Source of the DNA: Geodermatophilus sp. YIM 151500
GTDB taxonomy: Bacteria > Actinomycetota > Actinomycetes > Mycobacteriales > Geodermatophilaceae
DNA: 39,301 nt
Assembly: GCF_025716945.1 (NCBI RefSeq)
Contig: NZ_JAOVZT010000012.1
Location: 1 to 39,301, forward strand
Direction of reading: 5' to 3'
In this document: one piece after another, positions 23,112 to 23,768 of the stretch
Position numbering within the stretch: the stretch's first letter is position 1
Layout: every line of letters begins with the position of its first letter
The notes under the pieces: generated by a model
Databases searched by the model: none
What the model was told of the DNA's origin: nothing
Seen by the model: the letters and a program-made list of their open reading frames with translations, nothing else
Program-made: the position numbers and the translations under genes

Positions 23112-23768
23112 TCAGCCCGGCGGCGGGTGCTCCGCCCGCCACTCGTCGAACGCGGCGAGGAACGACTCGGCCATGTGCTGCTCGGTCTCCAGCTGCACCC
23201 GGTCGCGGTCGTCGACCATCCGCTTCGCCAGCGCCATGGTGTTCATCCGGATCGCCCGGAAGTACGGGATGAACGACGACGGTGTGAACGCCTTCTCCGA
23301 CGGCCGCGGGGTCACCCCCTCGGGCGTCCAGCCGGTCGGCGCGGGGACGGCGGGCAGGCCGAGGGACTCCAGCGCCGACAGCACCGGCTCGTCGTCCGGG
23401 CGGTCGGTGAAGTCGCGCGACAGCTCGCGGAACACCTCCCGCCCGTCCGGCGCCACCGCGATCACGACCGGCGCGAACACCCGGCGGTCGGGGTTCCAGG
23501 CGTCCAGCGGCTGCGCGAGGCGCTCGCCGCCGGGGTCGCTCACCCAGCGGAAGGGCAGGAACCACGTGCGGTTCATGGCCACCTGGACCTCCGGCGGGTC
23601 CACCGAGGCGAGCAGGACCTCCGCGCCGGCGGCCGACAGACGGGGCAGCGAACGGGCCAGGCGGACCGCCTGGGCGCAGCAGTAGGGCTACCAGTCACCC
23701 CGCAGGCCGACGAAGAGCAGGGCGGCGCGCTCGTCCGAGCGCAGGGACAGCAGGTCCGCGGACTCCAT
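23112..23768 (-). CDS. Thioredoxin-fold peroxiredoxin-like protein with in-frame UAG, candidate UAG-encoded selenoprotein
   Basis: Read from ATG 23768, the frame is open for 26 codons, meets TAG at 23690-23688, and continues for 191 more codons to the stop at 23112. Both parts form one thioredoxin-fold domain: AALLFVGLRGDW-(UAG)-PYCCAQAVRLARSLP...EVLLASVDPPEV. The UAG sits exactly where the first cysteine of the redox motif (GDWCPYC) belongs. Selenocysteine inserted at UAG is established in Geodermatophilus and Blastococcus. A 7-bp hairpin with a GGUC loop follows at the SECIS distance. The start has -10 TAGGCT 6 nt upstream (leaderless), and a strong terminator follows. The 218-residue product probably reduces peroxides or disulfides. 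Alternatives are a nonsense-mutated cysteine gene, or a short 163-codon product from GTG 23603 lacking the active site. Confidence 0.82.
23657..23673 (-). promoter_or_regulatory. SECIS-like hairpin downstream of the UAG codon
   Basis: On the mRNA, CCAGGCG and CGCCUGG form a perfect 7-bp stem around GUC, so the apical sequence reads GGUC. Exactly 20 nt separate UAG from GGUC. In E. coli fdhF mRNA a GGUC apical loop follows UGA by 18 nt and is read by SelB. No bulged U is evident in the upper stem, which differs from the E. coli element. Confidence 0.65.

Follow-up and report, generated by a model that had tools for sequence, protein, structure and literature searches.

The question raised by this locus is whether a UAG triplet inside an otherwise open frame ends translation or is read as selenocysteine (Sec). 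The window, i.e. the whole stretch of DNA that was analysed, comprises 39,301 nucleotides of Geodermatophilus sp. YIM 151500. On its minus strand, a frame of 657 nt (23112-23768, 218 codons plus TGA) opens with an ATG at 23768, contains a TAG at 23690-23688 (codon 27) and closes with a TGA at 23114-23112; no further stop interrupts it. The read-through product has 218 residues with the in-frame UAG counted, and is made up of 26 codons up to RGDW, the UAG, and then PYCCAQAVRL and the rest of the protein. An earlier note on this DNA had described the frame in just this way, exact in coordinates, strand and reading, and had proposed that the UAG encodes Sec at the first cysteine of a CxxC-type motif. 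The frame, a profile match and the orthologues together point to a gene for an AhpC/TSA-like (peroxiredoxin-like) selenoprotein with a UxxC motif, and we consider it very probable that tRNA-Sec(CUA) reads the UAG and inserts Sec at Sec27-Pro-Tyr-Cys30 of this enzyme.

With translation table 11, the gene ends at codon 27 or starts late, as the note had anticipated; standard annotation could call an alternative internal ORF of 163 aa instead, which has a GTG start at 23603 (23112-23603, minus strand) and does not include the active site. The PYC motif of the active site is encoded downstream of the UAG but upstream of this internal GTG, and the table-11 reading thus misses or misnames a redox enzyme. 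Inspection of the sequence revealed no clear ribosome-binding site near ATG 23768, which is therefore a tentative start for the UAG gene; Met or Val is found at the same place in 27 of 28 family genes. At a GC content of 74.6%, a long open frame past a stop is weak evidence when taken alone, and it is therefore conservation that carries the case. Elsewhere in the window, on the minus strand between 25680 and 29097, there are ORFs which from a look at the sequence resemble a tripartite tricarboxylate transporter.

A UAG-decoding tRNA-Sec has reportedly been described in Geodermatophilus and Blastococcus by Mukai and colleagues in 2016. The genome that contains the window (G000; 4.77 Mb, 99.8% complete) has such a tRNA on contig C49 (2601-2692), which scores 66.4 bits with the tRNA-Sec covariance model (gathering score 47) and has the anticodon CTA. 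A second hit above the gathering score of this model is a tRNA-Ser. The genes selA (424 bits), selB (282 bits) and selD (386 bits), all over their curated cut-offs, are found at the same locus, so that the four genes that the earlier note had named as the ones to look for are all present, together in a region of about 8 kb. Among 59 relatives, 35 are genomes of the family, and a tRNA-Sec was found in 33 of these (CTA only in 25, TCA only in seven, both in G014); in the non-family genomes of the order, 15 of 24 gave a tRNA-Sec hit, all with TCA. Many of the CTA genomes do not contain the AhpC-like UAG gene, and tRNA-Sec(CTA) must therefore serve further genes too. The two tRNA-Sec genes of G014, TCA and CTA, lie on different contigs (L026 on G014:C17 and L063 on G014:C11), which could indicate a dual-codon or transitional state, or contamination. 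In every scanned locus that holds a tRNA-Sec(CTA), the program ARAGORN designates it 'tRNA-Pyl' (e.g. L001:1501-1596), likely a trap for annotation.

The read-through protein was used to search for orthologues in the 59 relatives (E 1e-10) and in 112 genomes of the family (E 1e-15), with the window's own genome counted in both sets. There were matches in 12 of the 59 relatives: ten with one TAG, one with one TGA (G056, which belongs to a neighbouring family in the order) and one whose matched part contains no stop (G018). The distribution within the family is patchy, with the gene in 30 of 112 genomes and five of 12 genera and no match in the other 82. Of these 30 genes, 28 are intact, all of them interrupted only once, by a UAG at column 27; since the orthologues are related, this does not amount to 28 independent events. 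The tRNA agrees with the codon throughout: tRNA-Sec(CTA) is present in all 30 family genomes with the UAG gene, and G056, with UGA in the gene, has tRNA-Sec(TCA). In a class-wide search of 394 genomes (E 1e-20) the UAG gene was found in two, both within the family, and a plasmid search gave a single distant match. A collection of named genomes, which overlaps the family set, yielded 131 stretches that matched the search pattern; a relative is encoded by 98 of them, of which 80 were retained. The closest 18 of these (at least 71% identity; Modestobacter, Blastococcus and Geodermatophilus) all have the UAG, one of them together with the 1-nt deletion described below. In 24 distant homologues that were aligned (23-35% identity), column 27 is Cys, which is not to be read as a frequency because the scan pattern itself held GDWCPYC.

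The remaining two family genes, in G018 and G133, keep the UAG, and one base is lost between it and the hairpin stem described below. The earlier note had asked whether close relatives show the gene decaying with further lesions. No such build-up of lesions is seen: two of the 30 genes share this one 1-nt deletion, and downstream of it they are still constrained, with dN/dS values of 0.27 and 0.33 versus 0.34 for intact pairs. A quick tree, weakly supported at its inner branches, does not group the two together. The deletion (L092/L024 in G018, L209 in G133), which sits at the base of the hairpin and is not followed by later decay, could be a sequencing error, repeated slippage or a sign of frameshifting.

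The two sides of the UAG are under comparable coding constraint. For the 26 codons upstream, the median pairwise dN/dS is 0.29, with 19 of 371 pairs reaching 1 or more; it is 0.25 from the UAG to the first internal GTG (11 of 373 pairs) and 0.33 for all codons downstream of the UAG (0 of 378 pairs). The stretch between the UAG and the internal GTG could be expressed by neither half-ORF, and its constraint thus indicates that it is kept as protein.

Downstream of the UAG lies a candidate bSECIS, the hairpin CCAGGCG-GUC-CGCCUGG (23657-23673, minus strand). Its apical loop starts 22 nt after the UAG on a stem of 7-8 bp in all 29 intact genes; on the 3' side, U replaces C in nine of the 29, and the pair is kept as G-U. 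In codons 28-38, the amino acid is invariant at seven columns of four- or six-fold degeneracy, and five of these use a single codon, compared to two of 54 such columns elsewhere (Fisher p = 7e-5, for a stretch that was picked after the hairpin had been seen). Among blocks of 11 codons, the lowest codon entropy is that of codons 29-39. Of 3000 synonymous shuffles, 345 produced a stem of at least 7 bp with a loop starting in G, and in four ORFs of the genome itself such a stem-loop stands downstream of 56 of 1563 codons. No Rfam family covers the hairpin; the sole hit between 23000 and 24000 at E ≤ 1 is to a microRNA family on the opposite strand, which lies outside the hairpin and falls far short of its gathering score. 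Folding energy was tried as proof of a SECIS and failed: over 76 nt the z-score is +1.23, with 182 of 200 dinucleotide shuffles folding as well, and the same is true of 1071 of 2000 synonymous shuffles. The argument for a SECIS would thus be one of placement and constraint, not of stability.

If the UAG were a true stop, as in a decaying gene or through a sequencing error, only the ORF from GTG 23603 would be made, or nothing at all. That the internal GTG opens 163 codons, that two relatives have the 1-nt deletion close to the UAG and that 82 of 112 family genomes do without the gene would all suit this explanation. It would leave the same codon in the same column of 28 out of 28 intact family orthologues, and the UGA in G056, without a cause, and it is at odds with constraint on both sides, including the stretch before the internal GTG, and with the position of the PYC motif between UAG and GTG. 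On the recurrence of the UAG and on this constraint, we rejected a pseudogene or sequencing error, and regard a true stop as very improbable. Still less credible is a reading of the UAG as pyrrolysine or by some other amber suppressor. The ARAGORN label of the CUA tRNA speaks for it, but the tRNA is recognised by the tRNA-Sec model, with no other Rfam family reported there, and is adjoined by selA, selB and selD; the column in question is Cys in aligned distant homologues and UGA in G056. The C-terminal family of PylS reached only 21.9 bits versus a cut-off of 178.15, and a pyrrolysine system was rejected on this score and on the tRNA-Sec model. The selenoprotein that the earlier note had proposed is supported by the tRNA, the sel genes and the conserved codon, all of them data from genome sequences.

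A variant that is compatible with Sec insertion, and which we think rather unlikely, holds that the hairpin is not a SECIS and that its constraint comes from a longer structure or from codon choice at the active site. The SECIS of Escherichia coli fdhF has a bulged U. Such a U is not evident here, and together with a folding energy that is unexceptional against shuffles this favours the variant; the peak of synonymous conservation at codons 29-39 and the constant start of the loop, 22 nt past the codon in 29 of 29 genes, argue against it. Hairpins at a similar distance in two other UAG genes of the genome, FDH-like and solute-binding, also count against it, although weakly, as their energies are not exceptional.

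The likeliest mechanism for Sec at UAG would be standard bacterial Sec insertion with a changed anticodon. SelA would convert Ser-tRNA-Sec(CUA) to Sec-tRNA with selenophosphate from SelD, and SelB would deliver the Sec-tRNA(CUA) at a UAG with the hairpin downstream of it, competing there with release factor 1. At UAG codons without a hairpin, translation would still end. A global reassignment of UAG was rejected, since UAG still ends genes: 14 of the 28 orthologues have both the internal UAG and a terminal UAG, and by a crude count 11 of 38 long open frames of the window with high GC3 end in TAG. From the 14 genes with both, it follows that UAG is recoded by context and not reassigned.

With PF00578 (AhpC-TSA), the read-through protein scores 40.7 bits, above the cut-off of 26, in a match that spans residues 17-109; all 11 members of set A1 match this family at E ≤ 0.001. 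A C-terminal part of roughly 100 residues extends beyond the match. A scan with NCBIfam gave only PrxQ, with 12.9 bits versus a cut-off of 260. The predicted structure (mean pLDDT 92.1, pTM 0.88) places residue 27 immediately ahead of a helix, 28-39, which we take to be the usual place of the active site in a thioredoxin fold. The 50 Foldseek matches listed against the PDB are peroxiredoxins, AhpC2 and AhpE among them, with a TM-score for AhpE (1xxu) of 0.52 by query and 0.73 by target. The product is thus predicted to be a thiol oxidoreductase or peroxidase of the AhpC/TSA family.

As to the active site, the earlier note had equated the UAG with the redox cysteine at the start of a CxxC-type motif. 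The UxxC placement is right, and Cys occupies this column in the 24 distant homologues, but in a profile alignment to the solved Bcp-type peroxiredoxin 2cx3 (weak, E 0.003) the Cys of FSPVC falls on Cys30 and not on Sec27, which is aligned with the Ser three positions earlier. The Cys of FSPVC is presumably the peroxidatic residue in the family of 2cx3. Cys30 (23679-23681, minus strand) is invariant in an alignment of 41 sequences. Sec27 may attack, with Cys30 as the resolving residue in the manner of thioredoxin, or the roles may be reversed; Sec27 is our preferred candidate for the attacking residue, since selection placed Sec there. Sec27 and Cys30 would form a reversible selenenylsulfide during the reduction of peroxide or another oxidised substrate.

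Two further genes with an in-frame UAG were seen in the same genome, each with a hairpin at a similar distance. One is an FDH-alpha-like gene (L202, contig C52, from 145676) with one in-frame TAG in the context QARI-U-HSA, which is followed by a hairpin with the loop GGUCU. Its first stretch scores 177 bits, under the family cut-off of 666. In FDH, this position typically carries Sec. A second FDH-like gene, on contig C14, likewise stays below 666 with its 541 bits and has no in-frame stop.

The other is a solute-binding gene of the SBP_bac_5 type (PF00496, 149 bits), which lies outside the window on contig C49 (L010:2868-4556, plus strand), between the tRNA-Sec(CTA) and selA, and has a UAG at residue 162 (GEGHW-U-VID). 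Homologues were found at E 1e-40 in 14 of 108 family genomes, own genome included, and in a class-wide search of 394 genomes (E 1e-60) in the window's own genome only. Of 20 loci, three do not extend as far as the motif GEGHW-stop-(V/I)ID; in the 17 that include it, the stop is TAG in 15 (own locus included), TGA in G025 and TAA in G007. The tRNA-Sec of G025 is TCA. In G007 (L222, G007:C70), with UAA at the Sec site, another in-frame stop, TAG, follows 313 codons later, and the tRNA-Sec that was found is TCA. The TAG loci include at least three that are fragmented or truncated (in G097, one copy in G105 and the second copy in G133). A scan of three homologues with NCBIfam matched no Sao model. 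Other substrate-binding selenoproteins, SaoX and SaoB, appear in the sections of PMC13188914 used here; a solute-binding family of the present type was not found in the literature searched, which included parts of PMC13188914, PMC9312934 and PMC12013277. We lean slightly towards the view that the UAG selenoproteome of the Geodermatophilaceae includes an undescribed SBP_bac_5-type family (GEGHW-U-(V/I)ID.PGPW), in which the Sec site would have followed the tRNA anticodon through swaps of the stop codon, with G014 as a possibly transitional or dual-codon genome.

Taken together, the 28 UAG genes, the one UGA gene and the matching anticodons form a clean natural record of a swap of the Sec codon. 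The 14 genes that combine a predicted Sec UAG inside the frame with a UAG as terminator offer ready material for studying how SelB and the hairpin distinguish between the two. For annotation, two errors coincide, as table 11 truncates the gene and ARAGORN mislabels the tRNA. The solute-binding family is the less known part and, if true, merits a second look by a specialist.

UAG-encoded Sec in the Geodermatophilaceae is already in print, in agreement with the earlier note, which mentioned a UAG-reading tRNA-Sec reported for Geodermatophilus and Blastococcus. In the sections of PMC5330540 (Santesmasses et al. 2017) used here, tRNA-Sec(CUA) is reported from three Geodermatophilaceae genomes, and an AhpC with Sec-TAG and a predicted bSECIS is described in Blastococcus saxobsidens DD2, beyond the FDH and UGSC proteins. 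The same sections cite FDH and UGSC-motif proteins, not AhpC, as the UAG-Sec targets from Mukai et al. 2016, with whose system the present genome has the CUA tRNA-Sec, the UAG Sec codon and an FDH target in common. Judged by these sections, the DD2 protein and ours share the AhpC family, the UAG Sec site, tRNA-Sec(CUA) and the Geodermatophilaceae as hosts, with a bSECIS that is predicted there and a candidate here, and the DD2 gene is probably an orthologue of the gene in the window. Unlike that report, which names AhpC in one of three genomes, we find the gene in 30 of 112, and the window comes from another genus-level group. The protein also resembles the Prx-like thiol:disulfide oxidoreductase selenoproteins (pfam00578, UxxC/UxxU) in the table of the review PMC9312934, with which it shares the PF00578 domain and the UxxC motif. 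These are listed without UAG, a term with 0 occurrences in the portion of the review covered, whereas the window gene uses UAG, and they differ from the window protein in its C-terminal extension past PF00578. Peroxiredoxin-like proteins with RGDWCPYC have the same motif, with Cys where the window protein has Sec. As the use of UAG for Sec in the Geodermatophilaceae and an AhpC of this type have both been published, the window gene is a further case; what is added here is its spread and strong conservation, a UGA orthologue with matching anticodon, and a constrained hairpin.
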